Source of the DNA: Candidatus Altimarinota bacterium
Lineage (GTDB): Bacteria > Patescibacteriota > Gracilibacteria > CAIRYL01
DNA length: 14,212 nt
Assembly (NCBI GenBank): GCA_027053135.1
Contig: JALUEA010000054.1
Span: 1-14,212 of the forward strand
Direction: 5' to 3'
In this document: positions 2,295 through 14,153 of the stretch, piece after piece
Position numbering within the stretch: the stretch's first letter is position 1
Layout: every line of letters starts with the position of its first letter
Program-made: the position numbers and the translations under genes
Notes under the pieces: generated by a model
Databases searched by the model: none
Told to the model about the DNA's origin: nothing
The model's input: the letters and a program-made list of their open reading frames with translations, nothing else

Positions 2295-5200
2295 TTACAC
2301 TTCTTTTTTCTGTCTATTTCGTTCATATTTTTCTCGAAATACTGCCCCTGCAGGAATAAGTTTTCCAATAATAACATTTTCTTTTAATCCTTCTAATTTA
2401 TCTTTTTTCCCTGAGATAGAAGCATCTACAAGTACTCGAATAGTTTCTTGAAACGATGCTGCTGATAACCACGAATCTGTTGTTAAGGCACTTCGTGTAA
2501 GTCCTAATAATTGTCGTTCAAATACTGGAGCTTTTTTATCAGGATTTTCTCGAATAAATTTCATAATCTTGTAATATCCTGTTAATTCTCCATTTACTAA
2601 CTCATCATAATCTCCCTTATCTATAACTCTTACTCGAGAGAACATTTCTCGAACAATCACTTCCATATGTTTATCATGAATTGTTTGTCCTTGTGATGCA
2701 TAAATACCTTGTACTTCTCGTGTAATATATCGTTGCACCGTAGCAAAATCTGTTTGTTGTAACAGTTCTCGAAGATTTAAATGTCCTGAAATTAAAGGAT
2801 CCCCAGCTTTCACCATTTGCCCATCTTCCACTAAGAAATTCTCATTTCCTTGAAATTCATACTGATCGACGATTTTCTCATTATGCCGTACTACAATTTC
2901 CGTATCAGTAATTTTTTCTACGGTACCAGGATAATTCGCTCGTAAAATAGTTGTTCCTTTTGCAACTATTTTTCCTGCTTTTATCGTATCTCCTTCAGAA
3001 ACTAAAATTTTCATTACCGATAATATTGGATACACATCCACTCCTTTTTCCTGTTCCTCAACATATACCGTTAAAGAAGTATTGGTTCTTTCAAATCGAA
3101 CCTTTCCGTTAATTTTTGAAAGTGTTGCAGGTGTTTTTGGATTTCGTGCTTCAAACAATTCTTCAACTCGTGAAAGCCCCTGAGTAATATCATTTCCAGA
3201 ATCTGCCACTCCTCCCATATGAAACGTTCGCATTGTAAGCTGTGTTCCTGGTTCTCCAATTGATTGAGCCGCAATAATTCCAACAGGAGTACCAATTTGA
3301 ACAAGTTGATCATCTCCTAAATCTCGACCATAACATTTTTGACATACTCCTTTCTCAACAGAACAATCTAAAATTGACCGAATATCAACTGATTGAATAT
3401 TTTTTTCATTAATTTTTTTTAGCATATCTCTATCAATTTCTTGATTTCGCACCCCTATAAGTTCTCCATTTTCATCTGCTAAATCTTTCACAAGGTATCG
3501 CCCAAGTAACCGCTGATCAAATGTTACCCCCAATGATTTAGAATCCTCTCGTGTAATAGTGTATGGATATTCATTTCCACAATCTTCCATTCGAATAATA
3601 ATATCTTGAACAGAATCAACAAGTCGTCGAGTTAAATACCCAGCTTCTGCTGTTTTCAAGGCTGTATCAGATTTTCCTTTTCGTCCTCCATGTGTTGCAA
3701 TAAAATACTCTACTATAGAGAACCCTCCTTTTAAATTTGATTTAATAGGAAGTTCAATAGTTCTTCCTCCAGGATTCGCTACTAACCCTTTCATTCCACA
3801 TAACTGCGTAATTTGTCCCCAGTTCCCTCGTGCACCAGAATCAATCATATAATAAATATGATTTTCTGGTTGTTTTTTAAACTCTTCTACCATGGCATCT
3901 GATATATCATTTTTTGCATCTGCCCATATTTTAATAGAATAATTATATCGTTCATCATCTGAAAGTAAGCCTTTATTATATGCATCATTTACTTTCTCCA
4001 ATAATTTTGTTGATGTATCTAATATATTATGTCGTGCTTCTGGTACAAGCATATCATTCATACCAATAGATAAACCAGATTTTGTAGAATATTTAAACCC
4101 TAACTCTTTAATATCATCAGCAAATTTTACAACTCTCTCTGGAGACACTTTTTCAAAAATTTCTGTAAATAAGGCATCAATTGCTTTATTTCGAAAAACA
4201 TCATTTCTATATCCTAATTCATCTGGAATAATCTCATTAAACAAAGCTCTCCCATATGAAGTATTTTCAATAATTTCTCCATTTATTCGAATAGAAATTC
4301 GTGCCTGAATATCTAAATTTCCTGTATCATACGCATACTTTGCCTCTTCAAGAGATCCATAAATATTCCCTTCTCCCTTACGACCCTCATGAATAGTTGT
4401 AATATAATATGCCCCAAGTACCATATCTTGACTTGGTGTAATAATTGGACTTCCTGAAGAAAGTTTTAAAATATTCGTTGTTGATAACATTAACTCCTTC
4501 GCTTCTTTTTGAGCTTCATCAGATAATGGTAAATGCACCGCCATTTGATCTCCATCAAAATCTGCATTATACGCTGCACAAACAAGAGGATGAATTTGAA
4601 TTGCTCGTCCTTCAATTAATACTGGAGAAAACGCCTGAATACCAAGTCTATGAAGTGTTGGAGCACGATTCAACAGTACATATTTATTTGAAATCACTTC
4701 TTCAAGTAAATCCCATACAATTTCTGCATTTGAAGCAATAATTTTTTCTGCTCCTTTTACATTATGGGTATATTCATTTTGAATTAACGCTCCAATTACA
4801 AATGGTTTAAATAATTTTAATGCCATCTTTTTTGGAATACCACACTGATGAAGTTTTAATTGTGGACCAACAACAATTACAGACCGACCTGAATAATCAA
4901 CTCGTTTTCCTAAAAGATTTTGCCGAAATCGTCCTTGTTTCCCTTTCAACATATCAGAAAGAGATTTTAATTGTCGTTTATCTGATGCAAATGCAACTCG
5001 ACCAGAACGAGGAGAATTATTCAATAAAGTATCTACTGCTTCTTGAAGCATTCGTTTCTCATTTCTACAAATAACTTCTGGGGCTCCTATAGACAATAAT
5101 CGTTTTAAACGATTGTTTCTGTTAATAATTCGTCTATAAAGATCATTCAAATCAGATGCTGCAAATCGTCCTCCATCAAGTTGAACCATTGGTCTCACAT

Positions 5201-6125
5201 CTGGCGGAATAACCGCAAGAGTGGTAATTAACATCCATTCTGGTTTAATACCAGATTTTTTAAGTGATTCAAAAAATTGTATATTTCGAATAATTTTTAT
5301 TTGTTTATGCCCTGTTGCACCATCTCGTTGTTCTTTTAGAGTTTCTAACTCTTTATCAATATCAATTTTTTCAAGAAGAAGTTTAATAGCTTCTGCTCCT
5401 GTCCCAGCAGTAAACATATGCCCAAACTTCATACTCAAGTTTCGGTATTCAATTTCAGTAATAACAGATTTTACTTGAATTTTTTCTAATTCACTTTCTG
5501 CCTGTCTCATTGCTTCTTGCAAGTTTTCTAACTGCTCTGCAAAATCAGCTTGCAATGCTTCTAAATCAGAAGTATTTAATTTCCCATCACGAATTTCTGC
5601 TTGTACTCGAACTTCCTCTCGTTTAAAAGTATCTTGAATTTCTTTTTTTGCTTTTTTTGCTTGATCTACTAAATTCATTTTTATATTTTCCCGTTCAGAC
5701 TCATCAACATCTGTTATAATATAAACAGAAAAATATAACACTTGCTCCAATATTTTTACAGGAAGATCTAAAGCCATACCAATTCGTGATGGTGTCGATC
5801 GTACATACCATGTATGAGCTACTGGTACACATAAATCAATATGTCCCATTCGTTCTCGACGCACAATAGATTTCGTTACTTCTACACCACACTTTTCACA
5901 AATAATCCCTTTATATCGGATTCTTTTATATTTTCCACAATAACATTCATAATTTTTTGATGGTCCAAAAATTCGCTCACAAAATAACCCATCAAGTTCT
6001 GGTCGTTGTGTTCGATAATTGATCGTTTCTGGCTTTGTAACCTCTCCATGTGACCATTCATGAATAAGTTCTGGCGAAGCAATTTTTAAAGAAATTGACG
6101 CAAAATTATTATCAATTTGTTTCAT
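2295..6125 (-). CDS. rpoC: DNA-directed RNA polymerase subunit beta' (RpoC)
   Basis: This is the 1276-residue beta' subunit, which carries the Mg2+-binding half of the RNA polymerase active site. The N-terminal zinc finger has C61, C63, C76 and C79. The catalytic loop NADFDGDQMAVHLP begins at N520, giving metal-binding D522, D524 and D526. The second zinc site is C849, C921, C928 and C931. The trigger-loop region includes AAQSIGEPGTQLTMRTFH around residues 948-966 and lacks the large insertion found there in E. coli. A charged coiled-coil-like insert lies at about 140-220 in the clamp. The ATG start gives the usual N-terminus, and there is no Shine-Dalgarno site; the upstream bases read TTGTTTT. 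The start is 50 nt after the ssb-like gene rather than next to rpoB, and the stop is TAA. The gene is complete. Confidence 0.98.
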   Translation of the reverse strand: MKQIDNNFASISLKIASPELIHEWSHGEVTKPETINYRTQRPELDGLFCERIFGPSKNYECYCGKYKRIRYKGIICEKCGVEVTKSIVRRERMGHIDLCVPVAHTWYVRSTPSRIGMALDLPVKILEQVLYFSVYIITDVDESERENIKMNLVDQAKKAKKEIQDTFKREEVRVQAEIRDGKLNTSDLEALQADFAEQLENLQEAMRQAESELEKIQVKSVITEIEYRNLSMKFGHMFTAGTGAEAIKLLLEKIDIDKELETLKEQRDGATGHKQIKIIRNIQFFESLKKSGIKPEWMLITTLAVIPPDVRPMVQLDGGRFAASDLNDLYRRIINRNNRLKRLLSIGAPEVICRNEKRMLQEAVDTLLNNSPRSGRVAFASDKRQLKSLSDMLKGKQGRFRQNLLGKRVDYSGRSVIVVGPQLKLHQCGIPKKMALKLFKPFVIGALIQNEYTHNVKGAEKIIASNAEIVWDLLEEVISNKYVLLNRAPTLHRLGIQAFSPVLIEGRAIQIHPLVCAAYNADFDGDQMAVHLPLSDEAQKEAKELMLSTTNILKLSSGSPIITPSQDMVLGAYYITTIHEGRKGEGNIYGSLEEAKYAYDTGNLDIQARISIRINGEIIENTSYGRALFNEIIPDELGYRNDVFRNKAIDALFTEIFEKVSPERVVKFADDIKELGFKYSTKSGLSIGMNDMLVPEARHNILDTSTKLLEKVNDAYNKGLLSDDERYNYSIKIWADAKNDISDAMVEEFKKQPENHIYYMIDSGARGNWGQITQLCGMKGLVANPGGRTIELPIKSNLKGGFSIVEYFIATHGGRKGKSDTALKTAEAGYLTRRLVDSVQDIIIRMEDCGNEYPYTITREDSKSLGVTFDQRLLGRYLVKDLADENGELIGVRNQEIDRDMLKKINEKNIQSVDIRSILDCSVEKGVCQKCYGRDLGDDQLVQIGTPVGIIAAQSIGEPGTQLTMRTFHMGGVADSGNDITQGLSRVEELFEARNPKTPATLSKINGKVRFERTNTSLTVYVEEQEKGVDVYPILSVMKILVSEGDTIKAGKIVAKGTTILRANYPGTVEKITDTEIVVRHNEKIVDQYEFQGNENFLVEDGQMVKAGDPLISGHLNLRELLQQTDFATVQRYITREVQGIYASQGQTIHDKHMEVIVREMFSRVRVIDKGDYDELVNGELTGYYKIMKFIRENPDKKAPVFERQLLGLTRSALTTDSWLSAASFQETIRVLVDASISGKKDKLEGLKENVIIGKLIPAGAVFREKYERNRQKKEV

Positions 6126-6175
6126 AAAACAATTTTATTAAGAATATAATATTTTTAAATTTTGAAGAATTACAG

Positions 6176-6601
6176 CTACGTATTATTCTCGTCTGCAATA
6201 TAAAAATCTGATTTAGAAGCTGAAAAAAATATTTTCTCTTCCTCTTCTGTTACCGATTCATGCTTTTGAGAAGAAAGGAGTATTATTTTTTGAGCAATTA
6301 TTTCTGTTTTAAATACTTTAATATTTTTTTTATTTACAAAACTTCGTGTTTTAATTAAACCTTCTATATACACCATATCAGCAACTCGACATTCATGAAG
6401 TATATCTGATAATTCATCCCAGGCAACAACATTATGAAACTCTGAAGAGGAATAGTTCTCATCACCATGGGTCTGCAAAACAAATAAAGCAAGTTTTCTC
6501 CCTGAAGTAAGAATTTTTTGTTCTGGCTCTCTTGAAATACTTCCCAACAATGTTACAGAATTAACCGTTTTGATTGTATTTACACTTTTCATACTACTCA
6601 T
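6176..6601 (-). CDS. SSB-type single-stranded DNA-binding (OB-fold) protein, between rpoB and rpoC
   Basis: The 141-residue product has an SSB-type OB fold at about 13-110. The typical strand pattern is NSVTLLGSISREPEQ (14-28), then SGRKLALFVLQT (33-44), FHNVVAWDEL (55-64), VYIEGLIKTRSF (77-88) and KTEIIAQKIILL (98-109). This matches the SSB family order LxGxLxxdPE, f.lat, WhnVvaw, vyveGrl.tR and tEivA. The tail is short (111-141) and ends ADENNT, without the acidic DDDIPF-like tip that canonical SSBs use to recruit replication and repair proteins. The gene starts 12 nt after the rpoB stop and ends 50 nt before rpoC, so it is almost certainly in the same transcript. A second in-frame ATG at codon 4 is an alternative start. 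It may be a diverged SSB paralog with a role linked to transcription, or the main SSB placed here. Family confident, role inferred. Confidence 0.85.
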   Translation of the reverse strand: MSSMKSVNTIKTVNSVTLLGSISREPEQKILTSGRKLALFVLQTHGDENYSSSEFHNVVAWDELSDILHECRVADMVYIEGLIKTRSFVNKKNIKVFKTEIIAQKIILLSSQKHESVTEEEEKIFFSASKSDFYIADENNT

Positions 6602-6613
6602 AAAACATACAAA

Positions 6614-9600
6614 CTATTCCTCTTTTCCCTCTTCTTCCTCTCTAACAGGCATATCTCCATGAACTTCTGCATCTAACTCCTCATCAGTTTCATGAATATT
6701 TGTATTGAGTTCAGATACTTTATCTTCCTCTGGAATTTCTGCCGTATCATCTGTATATATTTCATCAAGTTTTAATTCTATATGCTCATCTCTTTCATTT
6801 TCTAAATCTACTTCTAAACCAAGACCTTTCAATTCATGAAGCAATACATTAAACGACTCTGGAATAGATGGTTTTCCAAGCGGTAATCCTTTTACAATAG
6901 ATTCATATGCTTTCGAACGACCAATAACATCATCAGATTTAATAGTAAGCATTTCTTGAAGAATATGTGAAGCTGAATATGCTTCTAGTGCCCATACCTC
7001 CATTTCACCAAATCTCTGTCCTCCTTGCTGTGCTTTTCCTCCAAGAGGTTGTTGCGTTACAATAGAATATGGACCAACAGAACGTGCATGAAGTTTATCT
7101 TCAACAAGATGATTTAATTTAATCATATATGTAACCCCCATTGTCGTTTTAAATTGAAATGGATCTCCAGTTTTTCCATCAAATAATTGTGTTTTTCCAT
7201 CTTCTGGAAGTCCTGCATCTTTCAAAAACTGTGTAATTTCTTCAGAAGAAATTCCATTTAATACTGGCGTAGCAAATTTTACCCCCATTACTTTTCCTAC
7301 AAGTCCTAAATGTGTTTCTAATACTTGCCCAATATTCATACGCGAAGACACTCCCAGTGGATTCAAAATAATATCTACTTGTGTTCCATCTGCTAAAAAT
7401 GGCATATCTTCTCGTGCAACAATTTTCGAAACAACTCCTTTATTTCCGTGTCGTCCCGCCATTTTATCTCCTACTTGAATCTTTCGAGTTTGTGCTACAT
7501 ATACACGAATTTGTTTTAAAACTCCTTGATGTAAATCATGTCCTTTTTCTTTTGTAAAAATTTGAATATCAATAACCTTTCCTCCTTCTCCTCCAGGAAG
7601 ACGAAGTGAAGAATCTCTTACATCTTTCGCTTTTTCTCCAAAAATAGATTGTAATAACTGTTCTTCAGGAGTAAGTTCAACCTCTCCTTTTGGAGTAATT
7701 TTCCCCACCATAATATCACCATCATTTACCCAAGAACCAATTCGGATAATTCCATCTTCATCAAGATTTGCAAGTTTCGCATCCCCTACATTTGGAATAT
7801 CCCGTGTTACTTGTTCATTTCCTAACTTTGTTTCTCGTACATCTATAGAAAAACTCTCTATATGGATAGAATCATAATATCCGTTTTGTGCGACTTTATC
7901 AGAAATAATAATAGCATCTTCATAATTATATCCTTCCCATGGCATATACGCCACAATAAGATTTTGCCCAAGTGCTAATTCTCCATTTTCTGTAGAAGCA
8001 CCATTTATCAATGTATGCCCTTTTATTACTCTTTCTCCTTTTGAAACATTTGGTCGAAAATGAAAACATGTTGTTTGATTTGATCGCACATAATTTGGAA
8101 TTTCATATGTTCTTCTTTTTCCAGAATCGTATTGAATAGTAATTTCTCGTGCATCAACCTCTATAACTTCTCCATCTTCATCAGCGACAATTGCTGTCCC
8201 TGCAGCTCGTGCAACTTCCCCCTCAAGCCCAGTTCCAACAATTGGAGCATGAGGACTAATAAGAGGAACCGCTTGTCGTTGCATGTTCGACCCCATCGAA
8301 GCACGCGTATTATCATCATTTTCCAAAAATGGAATAAGTGCTGTTGTTTCCGAAACAATTTGTTTCGAAGAAATATCAAAATGCGTTATTAAATCTGCAG
8401 AAACAAGAGAAGCTTCTCCCTTAATTCGTGCTGGAATCATGTCTCCTATAACATTTCCGTAATCATCGACATTTCCTGCAAGTTGCCCAACTATAATTGA
8501 TTCTTCTTCTGAGGCATCTAAATAATGAATATCTCCATCTACAAAATGCCGTAACTTCACTGTGTCTTTTCCAGACTGTGCAATCTTTTTAGCTAAATCT
8601 TCTGTAATAACATCACCACTTTTCCCACCAGCAATATCTTCATTCAGAATTCGCCCAATTAAATCTCCTGTAACAGGAAGCTCTTTTTTCACTACCTGAA
8701 GAGGAGTTGTAATAAATCCATATTTATTTACTTTTGCATATGTTGCAAAATGCAATACTAACCCAATATTTGGCCCCTCTGGAGTAGCAATAGGACAAAT
8801 TCGTCCATAATGAGACGAATGAACATCTCGAACATCAAAACCTGCTCGTTCTCGAGAAAGTCCTCCAGGTCCCATTGTAGAAATACGCCGTTTATGCGCT
8901 AATTCTGCTAATGGATTAATTTGATCCATAAATTGAGACAATTGAGAACTCGCAAAAAATTCTCTCATTGCTGCAGTAATAGGTCGAGAATTAACAATTT
9001 GAACAGCCATAATAGCATCTAAGTCAACTACTGTCATCCTATCTTTTGCAATTCGATCAACTCGCATCAACCCAACTCTAAACTTATTCATTACAAGCTC
9101 TCCAACACTTCGTATTCGTCGATTTTGAAGATGATCAATATCATCAACTTTTCCACCTGTTTTTGCAGTAAGCTGAATTAACTCCTTCATGATTGGAAGG
9201 AAATCTGATACTTGAAAAATTCTATTTTCTCGTGTATCAGGTTTATTAAGATTAAATCGTTTATTTAATTTATACCGTGCTATAGGCCCTAAATCATATT
9301 TTCGAAAATCAAAAAACATTGAATCAACCAAAGATTTTGCATTCTCTGCTGTTGCCATATCCCCTGGTCGAATTTTTCTATAAATAGATTGATATGCCTC
9401 TTCCACTGTTTTTGCAGAATCTTTTTCAAGCGTATTCATAAGAACTTCTCTATCTGCGTCGTGCATCTCTCCAAACGCTTCAAGAATATCTGCGTCGGTT
9501 TGATACCCAAAAATTCGCAACAGTTGTGTTGCTGGAAATTTTCGTTTTCGATCAATCTTCGCATACAACATTTTTTTCTTATCCGATTCTATTTCAAGCC

Positions 9601-10123
9601 ATACTCCTCGACGAGGAATTATTTTTGTAGAAAACGCACCTGGAACACCTGGTACTCGAGAAAAAAATGCTCCTGGAGACCGAACAATCTGATTTACTAC
9701 AACTCGTTCAATACCATTAATAATAAATGTTCCTTTTTCTGTCATCAACGGCATAACACCAAGAAACACTTCTTGTTGTTTAATTTCACCAGTTTCTTTA
9801 TTTACAAGTTTAACTTCTACTTTTAAATTTGCCTCATATGAAAGATTATCTCTTTTTGCTGTTTCTGGATCAATTTTTGGCTCTTCTAAAGAATGCTTTA
9901 AAAAATGAATCTCAACTTTTTTCCCAGAAAAATCTTGCAATGGAGAAATTTCTTGAAGCATTTCATGAATTCCATTTTTCAAGAAATCCTCATATGAATC
10001 CAATTGTACTTGAATTAAATTTGGCAAATATTCTGCATCTTCACTTTCCGAGAAAAAGTATCGTCCATTCACCACCTTTGTAGGCTGCTGAGTAAACAAA
10101 TCTTTCTTTACCGCTTTTGACAT
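6614..10123 (-). CDS. rpoB: DNA-directed RNA polymerase subunit beta (RpoB)
   Basis: The beta subunit, about 1169 residues. I chose the ATG at 10123 (MSKAVKK) over an in-frame TTG two codons upstream. The rifampicin-pocket segment FFASSQLSQFMDQINPL has D400, and H410 and S415 follow; these correspond to E. coli D516, H526 and S531, all unchanged. ATPEGPNIGL follows. The catalytic lysines are K887 and K895 in GDKMAGRHGNKG, and the switch and clamp-contact region is GGQRFGEMEVWALEAY. The usual GVPSRMNIGQ is GVSSRMNIGQ here. After the normal end of the family (near LGLEVDLENE) comes an acidic tail of about 55-59 residues ending REEEEGKEE. The gene is preceded by a good promoter and 95-nt leader, with no rplJ/rplL upstream. 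It is followed after 12 nt by the ssb-like gene. No Shine-Dalgarno site is visible; TTTTGTTT precedes the ATG. Confidence 0.98.
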   Translation of the reverse strand: MSKAVKKDLFTQQPTKVVNGRYFFSESEDAEYLPNLIQVQLDSYEDFLKNGIHEMLQEISPLQDFSGKKVEIHFLKHSLEEPKIDPETAKRDNLSYEANLKVEVKLVNKETGEIKQQEVFLGVMPLMTEKGTFIINGIERVVVNQIVRSPGAFFSRVPGVPGAFSTKIIPRRGVWLEIESDKKKMLYAKIDRKRKFPATQLLRIFGYQTDADILEAFGEMHDADREVLMNTLEKDSAKTVEEAYQSIYRKIRPGDMATAENAKSLVDSMFFDFRKYDLGPIARYKLNKRFNLNKPDTRENRIFQVSDFLPIMKELIQLTAKTGGKVDDIDHLQNRRIRSVGELVMNKFRVGLMRVDRIAKDRMTVVDLDAIMAVQIVNSRPITAAMREFFASSQLSQFMDQINPLAELAHKRRISTMGPGGLSRERAGFDVRDVHSSHYGRICPIATPEGPNIGLVLHFATYAKVNKYGFITTPLQVVKKELPVTGDLIGRILNEDIAGGKSGDVITEDLAKKIAQSGKDTVKLRHFVDGDIHYLDASEEESIIVGQLAGNVDDYGNVIGDMIPARIKGEASLVSADLITHFDISSKQIVSETTALIPFLENDDNTRASMGSNMQRQAVPLISPHAPIVGTGLEGEVARAAGTAIVADEDGEVIEVDAREITIQYDSGKRRTYEIPNYVRSNQTTCFHFRPNVSKGERVIKGHTLINGASTENGELALGQNLIVAYMPWEGYNYEDAIIISDKVAQNGYYDSIHIESFSIDVRETKLGNEQVTRDIPNVGDAKLANLDEDGIIRIGSWVNDGDIMVGKITPKGEVELTPEEQLLQSIFGEKAKDVRDSSLRLPGGEGGKVIDIQIFTKEKGHDLHQGVLKQIRVYVAQTRKIQVGDKMAGRHGNKGVVSKIVAREDMPFLADGTQVDIILNPLGVSSRMNIGQVLETHLGLVGKVMGVKFATPVLNGISSEEITQFLKDAGLPEDGKTQLFDGKTGDPFQFKTTMGVTYMIKLNHLVEDKLHARSVGPYSIVTQQPLGGKAQQGGQRFGEMEVWALEAYSASHILQEMLTIKSDDVIGRSKAYESIVKGLPLGKPSIPESFNVLLHELKGLGLEVDLENERDEHIELKLDEIYTDDTAEIPEEDKVSELNTNIHETDEELDAEVHGDMPVREEEEGKEE

Positions 10124-10210
10124 AAACAAAAAATATAATAAAAATCAAGAAAATCACTATAAAATGACTTCTTTCTTCTTACTACTCAATCAATTCCCAA
10201 AAAGAACCTC

Positions 10211-10343: not shown

Positions 10344-10413
10344 TTCGATAAAAAATACTTTTTTGTTTCATCATCTTTCATTTTTTACACTTCATATTTT
10401 CATTGTATTTTCC

Positions 10414-12243
10414 ATGAACACAAAACATTCAATAGAAGAATTAGAAGCATCCGTTTCTATAGTTGATGTCGTATCTCGATATAGAAATCTTGTTAAAAGT
10501 GGAAAAAACTATAAAGCACTCTGTCCTTTTCATGACGACAAATCTCCATCTTTACTTATAAACCCAGAACAAAATTTTGCGTGGTGCTTTGCATGTCAAA
10601 ACGGAGGAAATATTTTTTCTTTTGTACAAAAAATAGAAGGATGTTCTTTTCCAGATGCTATTAAAATTATCGCAGAAATAGGAGGACAAGATGCATCAAA
10701 TTACCTTTTTCCATCAACAAAAACACCAGGAGAACAAAAACAACAAAAAGAATACAAAGAGCGACTTCGAGAAGTACTCGATGAAACACAAAAATTTTTT
10801 AGAAAAAATTTTACTAACAAAGATAATAAAGAAGCTCAATACTATATTTATTCTATTCGAAAATTTTCAGAAGATATTATACAAAAGTTTGGAATAGGAT
10901 TTGCTCCTAATTCATACTCTGCACTGCGAAAACATTTATTATATAAAAAATTTTCTCGAAAAGAAATGCTTGATGCAGGAGTCGTTTCTGGAGAAGAGGA
11001 AACAATCCACAATAAAGATGTAATTGATAAATATAGAAATAGAATAACTTTTCCAATACGAGATCCACTGGGGAAGCTATGTGGATTTGGAGGAAGAATA
11101 CTTAATGATGGACAACCAAAATATTTAAACTCTCCAGAGTCAGAACTCTATATAAAATCAAAAAACTTATACGGATTTTATGAAGCAAAAAATGCTATTC
11201 GAAAACATGATTCGGTACTTTTTGTTGAAGGAAATTTAGATGTTATGACATGTCATCAATATGGTATTGAAAATGTAATAGCAATATCTGGTGTAGGGTT
11301 TTCAGAATTTCAAGCACAACTTATAAAACGATTTACAACAAATGTACTTCTTGCTCTTGATAATGATGAAGCAGGTATAAAAGCAACAGAACGAATACTT
11401 CCCGTTTTATTTTCACAGAATATTTCAGCAAAAACACTTCAAGTAGAACCAAAATTTGGAAAAGATCCCGATGAAATATTACGTAATAATTCAGAAATAT
11501 TTTTATCTGCAGTAAAAAATGCAAAACCATCTATTGATGTATTACTTCACCAACTCAAAACCGAATATACAAAAAATAGTACAGCATTTACAGTAGATAA
11601 AAAACGACAAATACTCAATCGCGTCTTTCCTATTATTGCATCTCATCCATTTCCTTTAGAAAAAAAATATGATATAGCCAGTATTTCAAAAATATTACAA
11701 ATAGATGAAAGCATAGTAAATGATGAATTCAATACATTTATAGGGAAAAAACACACCGCAAAACTCAAAAAGAACAAAAAATATAAACAAGATTTATCTT
11801 CTATAAGCGAAATTCCACGAAAATTATATTTTTGGGGAGTCCTTCTTAAATTCTTCCCAGAAATGATATATGTATTTTCTGTAATAGAGGCAAATTTTTT
11901 CGCATCAACAGAAGAAAAAGAGTTGTATAATGTATTACATAATGCGTATAATGAAAATCGCAAAATTTCCATGAAAGAGGTACTTGCTAAATTTTCTTCT
12001 GAATTTCAAAATGATATTATGCGATCTATGCTATATGCAGAGCAATATCTTGGGAAATTATCTGCATTACAACGCAAAACAGAAATTAAAAATTTAGTAT
12101 ATTCAATTGGGAAAGAATTAGTTACAGAACGATTTAATTACTTTAAAACCAAAATTGAAACAGACTCCTCTCCACGAAATATTCAGCAATTTCAATTTTA
12201 TGCAGATGCATTAAAAAAAATGAAAACAACAAGCCTTTATTAG
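10414..12243 (+). CDS. dnaG: DNA primase DnaG
   Basis: The 609-residue primase makes RNA primers for chromosome replication. I chose the ATG at 10414 (MNTKHSIEEL). A TTG 17 codons upstream stays in frame but adds a hydrophobic stretch unlike any DnaG N-terminus. The CHC2 zinc-binding domain has C37, H40, C58 and C61. The RNAP-like core carries YRNRITFPIRDPLG (207-220), GFGGRIL (224-230) and PKYLNSPE (235-242). The TOPRIM domain has EGNLD with E272, LALDNDEAG with D316 and D318, and KDPDE (350-354). The usual SGTALT motif is SGVGFS (292-297). The C-terminal helicase-binding region (about 455-609) is poorly conserved. The gene ends in TAG and is followed after 18 nt by rpoD. This dnaG-rpoD pairing is the conserved part of the macromolecular synthesis operon; rpsU is absent. 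Confidence 0.96.
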   Translation: MNTKHSIEELEASVSIVDVVSRYRNLVKSGKNYKALCPFHDDKSPSLLINPEQNFAWCFACQNGGNIFSFVQKIEGCSFPDAIKIIAEIGGQDASNYLFPSTKTPGEQKQQKEYKERLREVLDETQKFFRKNFTNKDNKEAQYYIYSIRKFSEDIIQKFGIGFAPNSYSALRKHLLYKKFSRKEMLDAGVVSGEEETIHNKDVIDKYRNRITFPIRDPLGKLCGFGGRILNDGQPKYLNSPESELYIKSKNLYGFYEAKNAIRKHDSVLFVEGNLDVMTCHQYGIENVIAISGVGFSEFQAQLIKRFTTNVLLALDNDEAGIKATERILPVLFSQNISAKTLQVEPKFGKDPDEILRNNSEIFLSAVKNAKPSIDVLLHQLKTEYTKNSTAFTVDKKRQILNRVFPIIASHPFPLEKKYDIASISKILQIDESIVNDEFNTFIGKKHTAKLKKNKKYKQDLSSISEIPRKLYFWGVLLKFFPEMIYVFSVIEANFFASTEEKELYNVLHNAYNENRKISMKEVLAKFSSEFQNDIMRSMLYAEQYLGKLSALQRKTEIKNLVYSIGKELVTERFNYFKTKIETDSSPRNIQQFQFYADALKKMKTTSLY

Positions 12244-12261
12244 TATTTTTTTCTTTAATTT

Positions 12262-13614
12262 GTGGCAAAAGTAACAACATTTATTAGTCAACCATCTGAC
12301 GAAGATTTAAGTAAATTCCCAGAAAAAGTTTTAGAACTCATTCAACAAGGACGAGTTAATGGATTTGTAACTCATCAAGAAGTAATGAAAGCTCTCCCTG
12401 ATGCAGAGAAAGATTTACCACTCTTAGATGATTTATACAATTTATTTTTTGATATTGGAATTACTGTTATAGAAGCAAAAGAAGCACTGTCTTTTGACAG
12501 TGAAGATGCCAATATCGTCAACGACGATAAAGATATTGAAGACGAAACCAAAATAACAAAACAACTTACTTTCCTTCTCGGGTCACAAATATCAAATACA
12601 GAAAAAAAAATACTTGAAATTGATGATCCAGAAGAATCAGATATTCCCCCTCATGAAATTGATGAAGAAGGAATTATAAAAGAAGATGAGGAAGCACAAA
12701 GACTTGATGATGATCGAAAAATTAATATAGAAGATATTACCAACGATTCTGTTCGAATGTATTTATCTGAAATAGGAAAAGTTGACCTCTTAACAAAAGA
12801 CGAAGAAGTACAACTTGCCAAACAAATTGAAAAAGGAAATGCATCAGCGAAACAACATTTAGCAGAAGCTAATTTACGGCTTGTTGTATCAATTGCAAAA
12901 AAATATATGGGGCGAGGGCTTTCATTCCTCGATTTAATTCAAGAAGGAAATATTGGATTGTTTCGTGCTGTTGAAAAATTTGATTACAGAAGAGGATTCA
13001 AATTTTCTACATATGCAACATGGTGGATTCGACAAGCTATAACTCGTGCTATTGCTGACCAAGCACGAACAATTCGTATTCCAGTCCATATGGTAGAAAC
13101 AATAAACCGACTAACACATACGAAAAGAAGACTTGCACAAGAATTAGGACGAGATGCAACAATTGAAGAACTTGCAGAAGAAATGGACCTTGATAAAAAA
13201 AAAGTTCAGTATATAATAAAAATTTCTCAAGATATTGTTCCTCTTGAAGCTCCAGTAGGAAGTGAAGAAGATTCAAAACTTTCAGATTTTATAGAAGATA
13301 AAGATGCTCCATCTCCTGAAGAATCTGCATCAAATCAAATCTTGAAAGATAATATTCAATCAATGTTAGAATATCTTTCTCCTCGAGAACGAAAAATTAT
13401 TGAAATGCGATTTGGATTAACAGATGGAGTATCTCACACTCTCGAAGAAGTAGGACAAGATTTTGGAGTTACACGAGAACGAATTAGACAAATTGAGGCA
13501 AAAGTTTTACAAAAATTACGAGATCATCCTATGAATGTTCGTATTAAGGAAAATTATATTGCCGATAAAAACACCGCAACGAAAATCGTTCGAAAAAAAG
13601 TCAAACCAAGCTAG
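12262..13614 (+). CDS. rpoD: Primary RNA polymerase sigma factor RpoD (sigma-70)
   Basis: The 450-residue group 1 sigma factor directs the core enzyme to -10/-35 promoters. It starts with GTG (MAKVTTF). A region 1.1-like head occupies about 10-75, and an acidic linker about 76-157 is rich in Asp and Glu. Region 1.2 begins near [12 protein letters not shown] (161-172). Region 2 spans about 203-270 and includes [19 protein letters not shown] and the -10-reading helix [17 protein letters not shown] (251-267). Region 3 runs about 275-350. Region 4 has [15 protein letters not shown] and the helix-turn-helix [14 protein letters not shown] (401-414) for -35 binding. The -10-contacting residues look canonical, which fits the TATAAT box before rpoB. 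The gene lies 18 nt behind dnaG, too close for an independent promoter, so the two are presumably co-transcribed. It ends in TAG, with no hairpin terminator before greA. Confidence 0.97.
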
Positions 13615-13685
13615 AAATTATTCTATATTTCTGTACAATAAAAAAGAAACTATTCAAAATCAGTACTTTATAACTCATTAACTAT

Positions 13686-14153
13686 ATGTCTCAAATAATT
13701 GTAACAGCCGAAGGATATCAAAAAATGCAAGAAGAACTTGAATACCTCAAGACAACTCGTCGAAAAGAAATAGCTGACCGACTCAAAGAAGCTATTTCAT
13801 ATGGAGACCTTTCTGAAAATTCTGAATACCAAGAAGCAAAAGAAGAACAAGCATTTCTTGAAGGGAAAATTGCTGCATTAACCAAAGAAATTCAAAATGC
13901 CGTAATTGAAAAGAAAACAGGAACAAAAAACTCTATTTATCTTGGATCAAAAATACAATTAAAAATCAATAACGGTCCTGTAGAAGAGTACGAAATCGTT
14001 GGAGCAAGAGAAGCTGACCCTTTTTCCAACAAAATTTCAAATGAATCACCTGTAGGACAGGCATTATTAGGACGAAAAAAAGGAGAAATATTTTTTGTTG
14101 ACGCTCCTGCCGGTAAAATTGAATATGAAATTATAAAAATAGAAAACAAATAA
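13686..14153 (+). CDS. greA: Transcription elongation factor GreA
   Basis: The 155-residue protein is full length for the family (about 158 in E. coli). The N-terminal coiled coil (about 1-75) inserts into the polymerase secondary channel. Its acidic tip GDLSENSEY carries D41 and E44, the residues that stimulate cleavage of backtracked RNA. The C-terminal FKBP-like domain (about 80-155) includes the family pattern SPVGQALLGRKKGE (121-134). D41/E44 and overall similarity favour GreA over GreB. It follows rpoD by 71 nt. That gap has no terminator hairpin and only weak promoter-like sequence (TATAAC at 13669 without a good -35), so read-through from dnaG-rpoD is likely. The ATG has no Shine-Dalgarno site. 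The 59 bases after the stop are A/T rich and show no GC-stemmed terminator. Confidence 0.96.
   Translation: MSQIIVTAEGYQKMQEELEYLKTTRRKEIADRLKEAISYGDLSENSEYQEAKEEQAFLEGKIAALTKEIQNAVIEKKTGTKNSIYLGSKIQLKINNGPVEEYEIVGAREADPFSNKISNESPVGQALLGRKKGEIFFVDAPAGKIEYEIIKIENK

Follow-up and report, generated by a model that had tools for sequence, protein, structure and literature searches.

An SSB-family gene without the canonical tip between rpoB and rpoC is a candidate displaced copy of the ribosomal-operon ssb

A contig of 14,212 nucleotides (nt) from Candidatus Altimarinota bacterium (class Gracilibacteria; assembly GCA_027053135.1, contig JALUEA010000054.1), here called the window in its full length, carries a gene of the single-stranded DNA-binding protein (SSB) family between rpoB and rpoC. 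The gene is conserved behind rpoB in nine families of its class, which comprises uncultured bacteria of small genome size, its product lacks the canonical SSB tip, and its origin very probably lies in the ribosomal operon of Patescibacteria. From sequence and gene linkage we suggest, with a probability of roughly 0.45, that it is a displaced, tip-less SSB paralog that is co-expressed with RNA polymerase and has a role at transcribed DNA. As rpoB and rpoC are adjacent in most bacteria, a conserved insert between them deserves attention. Searches of the open-access PMC literature, read as titles and abstract openings, yielded no mention of ssb between these two genes.

An SSB gene follows rpoB in nine families

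The survey covered 99 genomes (G000-G098): the one that carries the window and 98 relatives, almost all of which belong to its class or are closer still. The 3' end of rpoB is visible in 93 of the 99 genomes (not in G007, G042, G065, G087, G089 and G093), and linkage was called where a same-strand SSB lies within 300 nt after rpoB. An SSB stands directly behind rpoB in 35 of the 93, the own genome included, and in 9 of the 22 families with data: the own family f1 (7/7), f2 (1/1), f4 (1/1), f5 (7/13), f10 (10/10), f12 (1/1), f18 (5/5), f21 (2/2) and f23 (1/1); the call for G023 (f5) is borderline, with a distance of 285 nt and a weak score. The next gene after the linked ssb is rpoC in 25 of the 35, the remaining ten having rpoC elsewhere (seven, all f5), a contig end (G002, G091) or an intervening gene (G005). 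In f5, rpoB and rpoC are separated and the SSB is still found behind rpoB in the seven linked genomes. An SSB profile rebuilt from correct-strand translations reproduced both this census and the 18 rpsF-linked SSBs described below. In G049 (f5) two tandem SSB genes follow rpoB (L263, 3369-3776 and 4243-4710), one of them very divergent.

The sequence-only reading had proposed a survey of rpoB-rpoC regions in related genomes, and the conservation it looked for was borne out. It had also named a recent single-genome insertion or an assembly join as what would overturn it. The own assembly is a draft of 129 contigs, which speaks for a join; against either event stand the same gene order in other same-genus assemblies, the 35 linked genomes and five separately named records, so that the conserved order rules this explanation out at a probability close to nil. 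The five records come from a wider SSB scan with one genome per species, in which five of the best 80 loci listed lie behind rpoB (L137, L138, L140, L141 and L142); all are named Peregrinibacteria, Peribacteria or Patescibacteria, and L138 seems identical in contig to G027:C9, one of the 35. The 72 non-Patescibacteria loci among the best 80 listed showed no rpoB or rpoC match in the examined flank. Other Patescibacteria classes (30 genomes) have an SSB in none of 29 visible rpoB-rpoC junctions, with the rebuilt profile as well, and the gap between the two open reading frames (ORFs) is at most 46 nt in 28 of the 29. One locus of these classes, L339 of G119, has a 731-nt gap without an SSB match.

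The gene very probably came from the ribosomal operon

The class also has SSBs of the same type between rpsF and rpsR, a position that implies no ribosomal role. The rpsF locus was compared in 59 genomes, which cover 33 of the 35 linked ones. An ssb behind rpoB together with adjacent rpsF and rpsR was found in 26, including the own genome (L288); six carry both copies (f4, f18, f23), 12 the rpsF copy only and 10 neither, the rpoB end is not visible in two, and three are ambiguous. For G028 and G037 (f11), both in the class with neither copy, adjacency is insecure, as it rests on one ORF matched by both queries. Hence the rpsF-rpsR pair is free of ssb in 26 of the 32 resolved rpoB-ssb genomes, with two copies in the other six, and because of these 26 the window gene appears to be a relocated ribosomal-operon ssb. 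In other Patescibacteria, 13 loci have their SSB at rpsF-rpsR, with only rpsR visible in one of them. Two papers report the same location of ssb for S. aureus, B. subtilis and Thermotoga (PMC5531588, PMC2964679).

Trees of the OB domain are largely consistent with this history. In a tree of 99 rows, the rpoB- and rpsF-linked SSBs of the class form one group (support 96/81), which adjoins 6 of the 10 SSBs from rpsF loci in other Patescibacteria (98/95) and stands apart from the tip-bearing SSBs of the class; this tree includes the first domain only of 4 of the 15 two-domain SSBs. Two further trees support the group at 98 and 99/97. The domain limits of these three trees derive in part from a profile that included antisense translations, beside other profiles. 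The 99-row tree, the tree with support 99/97 and a tree with new domain limits leave out the divergent second SSB of G049 (L226, 609-1016), L146, L255 and L256; in the tree with support 98, which retains L255 and L256, both fall outside the group. Two tree results count against the account proposed below. With new domain limits and linker columns the free search lacks the group, though constraining it raises the likelihood by 1.19 (approximately unbiased test, p-AU 0.54) and the group is not rejected; in this tree the bootstrap has not settled and first domains of two-domain SSBs are not included. Moreover, the rpoB-linked copies are not monophyletic in the best trees, though a single clade is not rejected, with p-AU values of 0.35, 0.16 and, in the tree with linker columns, 0.23.

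The window protein resembles the SsbA-type protein of the rpsF-ssb-rpsR operon (PF00436, TIGR00621) in fold and family, and its type stands beside the rpsF SSBs of other Patescibacteria in the 99-row tree. It differs from that protein in its place behind rpoB, in the missing [LIVM]PF tip, in a score just below the TIGR00621 cut-off and, within its genus, in a shortened OB-fold loop.

Locus, fold and nucleic-acid binding surface

The sequence-only reading of an SSB-like ORF between rpoB and rpoC, all on a single strand, was confirmed, and a scan of the 50 nt that separate ssb from rpoC picked up nothing resembling a terminator. The features are as follows.

6614..10123, minus strand: rpoB, 1169 amino acids if started at ATG, with TTG at 10129 as a possible alternative; six Rpb2 Pfam domains
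6602..6613, minus strand: 12-nt spacer from the rpoB stop to the ssb ATG
6176..6601, minus strand: SSB-family gene, 141 amino acids, without canonical SSB tip (PF00436, 6.2e-18)
6269..6568, minus strand: predicted OB-fold domain, residues about 12-111 (Foldseek aligned ranges and model confidence, pLDDT, by block)
6200..6244, minus strand: C-terminal segment [DE]EEK-x-FF-[ST]-ASK-x-DFY, residues 120-134 (alignment and tail comparison; low model confidence)
6126..6175, minus strand: 50-nt spacer from ssb to rpoC
2295..6125, minus strand: rpoC, 1276 amino acids

The protein scores 65.2 bits against PF00436 (family cut-off 26) and 53.4 bits against TIGR00621, half a bit under the cut-off of 53.95; its best match among SSBs in the PDB is at 1.8e-11. 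The AlphaFold2 model, compared by Foldseek, predicts an OB fold. The aromatic residues that stack on single-stranded DNA (ssDNA) in E. coli SSB are reported to be W40, W54, F60 and W88. Aligned to that protein, the window SSB lacks the W40 region and has F, W and F at the other three positions, so that three of four remain aromatic and nucleic-acid binding seems plausible in an altered form. The rpoB-linked SSB of the genus is under purifying selection, with a ratio of non-synonymous to synonymous substitution rates (dN/dS) of 0.14-0.31 in six pairs, compared with 0.06-0.10 for the RpoC N-terminus. It has diverged far, the genus forming the longest inner branch in one OB-domain tree. In same-genus G002, whose SSB (L308) is truncated by the end of the contig, a W stands where the other members have F, which suggests that the fast divergence may be recent and lie inside the genus.

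The canonical tip is absent from linked SSBs

The window protein ends in DFYIADENNT, and an acidic tip ending in PF was not found. The canonical [LIVM]PF tip is missing from all 37 rpoB-linked proteins and from all 20 complete rpsF-linked proteins of the class (including L028, L136 and L139). It is present in 45 of 48 unlinked SSBs of the class, a count that omits repeats and the cut piece L299 of G088 (which has the tip) and consists mostly of top-scoring PF00436 matches. We take 45/48 as the fair figure, since a count of 30/30 was circular, its group having been chosen by the presence of the tip, and we use counts in place of a Fisher test of tip against linkage, whose p of 6e-24 ignores shared descent. 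SSBs at rpsF-rpsR loci of other Patescibacteria carry the tip in 11 of 13 cases. The three tip-less exceptions among the 48 (L255, L256 and L310, from G031 of f18 and from G062 and G091 of f21) have no rpoB or rpsF close by in the examined flank.

Many rpsF-linked SSBs of the class have an acidic end with F as the last residue (DDDNMF, GENMF, DENIEF), which indicates that their tip is altered rather than missing. Among rpoB-linked proteins, those of f18, f21 and f23 end in DLGL and that of f12 in DDLNF, and those of f1, f2, f5 and f10 are without such an acidic end. The C-terminal segment listed above is common to four same-genus proteins and replaces the usual acidic tail and tip. The window protein still has a different tail of about 30 residues. 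In genomes with both copies, the rpoB-linked and rpsF-linked tails differ. A motif [DE](x)[FY][ILMV]P is found in 16 of 37 rpoB-linked and 1 of 11 rpsF-linked proteins; it was chosen after viewing the tails and is not relied on. The acidic tail of RpoB was considered as a partner of the SSB and dropped, because such tails are found whether or not an SSB gene lies next to rpoB.

A second SSB in the genus

Four same-genus genomes (G001-G004) have three PF00436 matches each, two of them within one ORF of 284-312 amino acids that ends in PEDLPF. Since these genomes thus carry a second, canonical SSB, the rpoB-linked copy is probably not the housekeeping SSB of the genus. The own assembly gave no two-domain SSB and a single SSB in all, even at E ≤ 10 or with a two-domain profile; at 76% completeness this absence is most simply a gap. 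A sole SSB as a trait of the lineage is therefore rejected for the genus on account of the two-domain SSBs of its relatives. The earlier suggestion that the lineage keeps its only SSB at this site is not supported for the own genus and may hold in four f10 genomes, where the rpoB-linked copy is the sole PF00436 match above the cut-off (G016, 98% complete; G045, 93%; G059, 88%; G094, 90%).

Proposed role and alternative explanations

The separate SSB of the class, with one or two domains and an xDLPF or xDIPF tip, presumably handles replication and repair. The old ribosomal-operon copy very probably lost its canonical tip, and in nine families a copy now sits directly behind rpoB, mostly before rpoC. 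We propose that its product would be expressed together with the RNA polymerase genes of its operon, in matching dose, as an OB-fold ssDNA binder that has no tip with which to bring in enzymes of replication and repair. Most likely it would coat ssDNA exposed by transcription, on the non-template strand or at R-loop margins, and the altered tail may or may not contact the polymerase. A stronger version, in which a bacterial SSB left the ribosomal operon, acquired a new polymerase-docking tail and now serves RNA polymerase exclusively as an accessory factor, shielding the non-template strand or keeping R-loops in check, appears rather unlikely.

The precedents considered here for an SSB working with RNA polymerase come from a phage and from archaea. 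The SSB of phage N4 activates late transcription by E. coli RNA polymerase via its C-terminal residues and not via ssDNA binding, and it contacts the C terminus of the beta-prime subunit (PMC4496689). Archaeal SSB/RPA proteins interact with RNA polymerase, and Pyrococcus RPA stimulates transcription in vitro (PMC3820547, PMC2246294). Unlike these proteins, one of a phage and the other of another domain of life, the window protein is bacterial, and its putative tie to the polymerase is one of gene linkage. It is a specific candidate for an SSB of cellular origin that cooperates with the polymerase, and its tip loss, relocation and persistent rpoB link yield predictions testable on purified proteins.

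Several observations weigh against a role with the polymerase. Linkage is patchy, being absent from 13 of the 22 families and from 6 of the 13 f5 genomes, and its distribution over a tree built from RpoB and RpoC pieces requires no fewer than 11 label changes (shuffled mean 27), a rough figure in that G091 and G023 are still labelled unlinked and G002 is absent; linkage was accordingly gained or lost repeatedly. The junction is also permissive in this class: a sodium/calcium exchanger gene lies between rpoB and rpoC in G022 (f16), G068 has a gap of comparable size, a dCTP deaminase-like gene in G015 (f9; L127, 210-797), and in G005 an SLH protein gene separates ssb from rpoC. That the junction accepts other genes weakens the step from a place between rpoB and rpoC to a partnership with the polymerase. 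The loci examined hold no ORF with both an SSB and an RpoB or RpoC match, and fusion thus gives no support for polymerase contact. Finally, the sole-SSB status in the four f10 genomes argues for a general role there. In G091 (f21), a gene resembling the G022 exchanger gene precedes rpoC; the loci of this set are L050 (2722-3669), L048 and L034 (135-1136).

Patchy linkage, unrelated genes in the same gap and the four genomes with a sole SSB would suit a passive relocation, in which an old ssb, superseded by the second SSB, moved into another strong constant operon and serves as a general auxiliary ssDNA binder unrelated to the polymerase; the ribosomal-operon position of ssb in S. aureus, B. 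subtilis and Thermotoga, cited above, points the same way. However, the identical place behind rpoB in nine families, the rpoB link kept in 7 of 13 f5 genomes with rpoC elsewhere, and the different tails of the two copies in two-copy genomes are not what such parking predicts, and we regard it as possible, at odds of about one in three.

A tip-less derivative of ssb is also known in PriB (primosomal replication protein N), and the window gene could be a PriB-like factor for replication restart with PriA. PriB lacks the SSB tail and tip; the window protein lacks the canonical tip, yet has another tail. The fold cannot separate PriB from SSB here. Three relatives score at least 140 bits against TIGR00621 and far lower, 19-26 bits, against the PriB_gamma model (cut-off 72), for which the window protein is not listed (TIGR04418, E 0.001). 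PriB has its place between rpsF and rpsR; the own rpsF and rpsR are adjacent with no ssb between them (L288), and in nine families a copy stands behind rpoB. PriA, tried as a marker of such a role, shows no clear association, occurring with and without the rpoB-linked gene; within the own genus, the assemblies G000, G001 and G004 (76-87% complete) yielded no PriA. We therefore consider a primosomal function improbable. The case suggests that a displaced ssb of the ribosomal operon has independently followed a course like that of PriB.

Neighbouring genes in the window

Divergent from rpoB, dnaG, rpoD and greA follow one another at 10363-14153 on the plus strand, so that the window unites core transcription genes, primase and an SSB. 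Downstream of rpoC, a DUF389-domain protein of 685 amino acids is encoded at 43-2100 on the minus strand.
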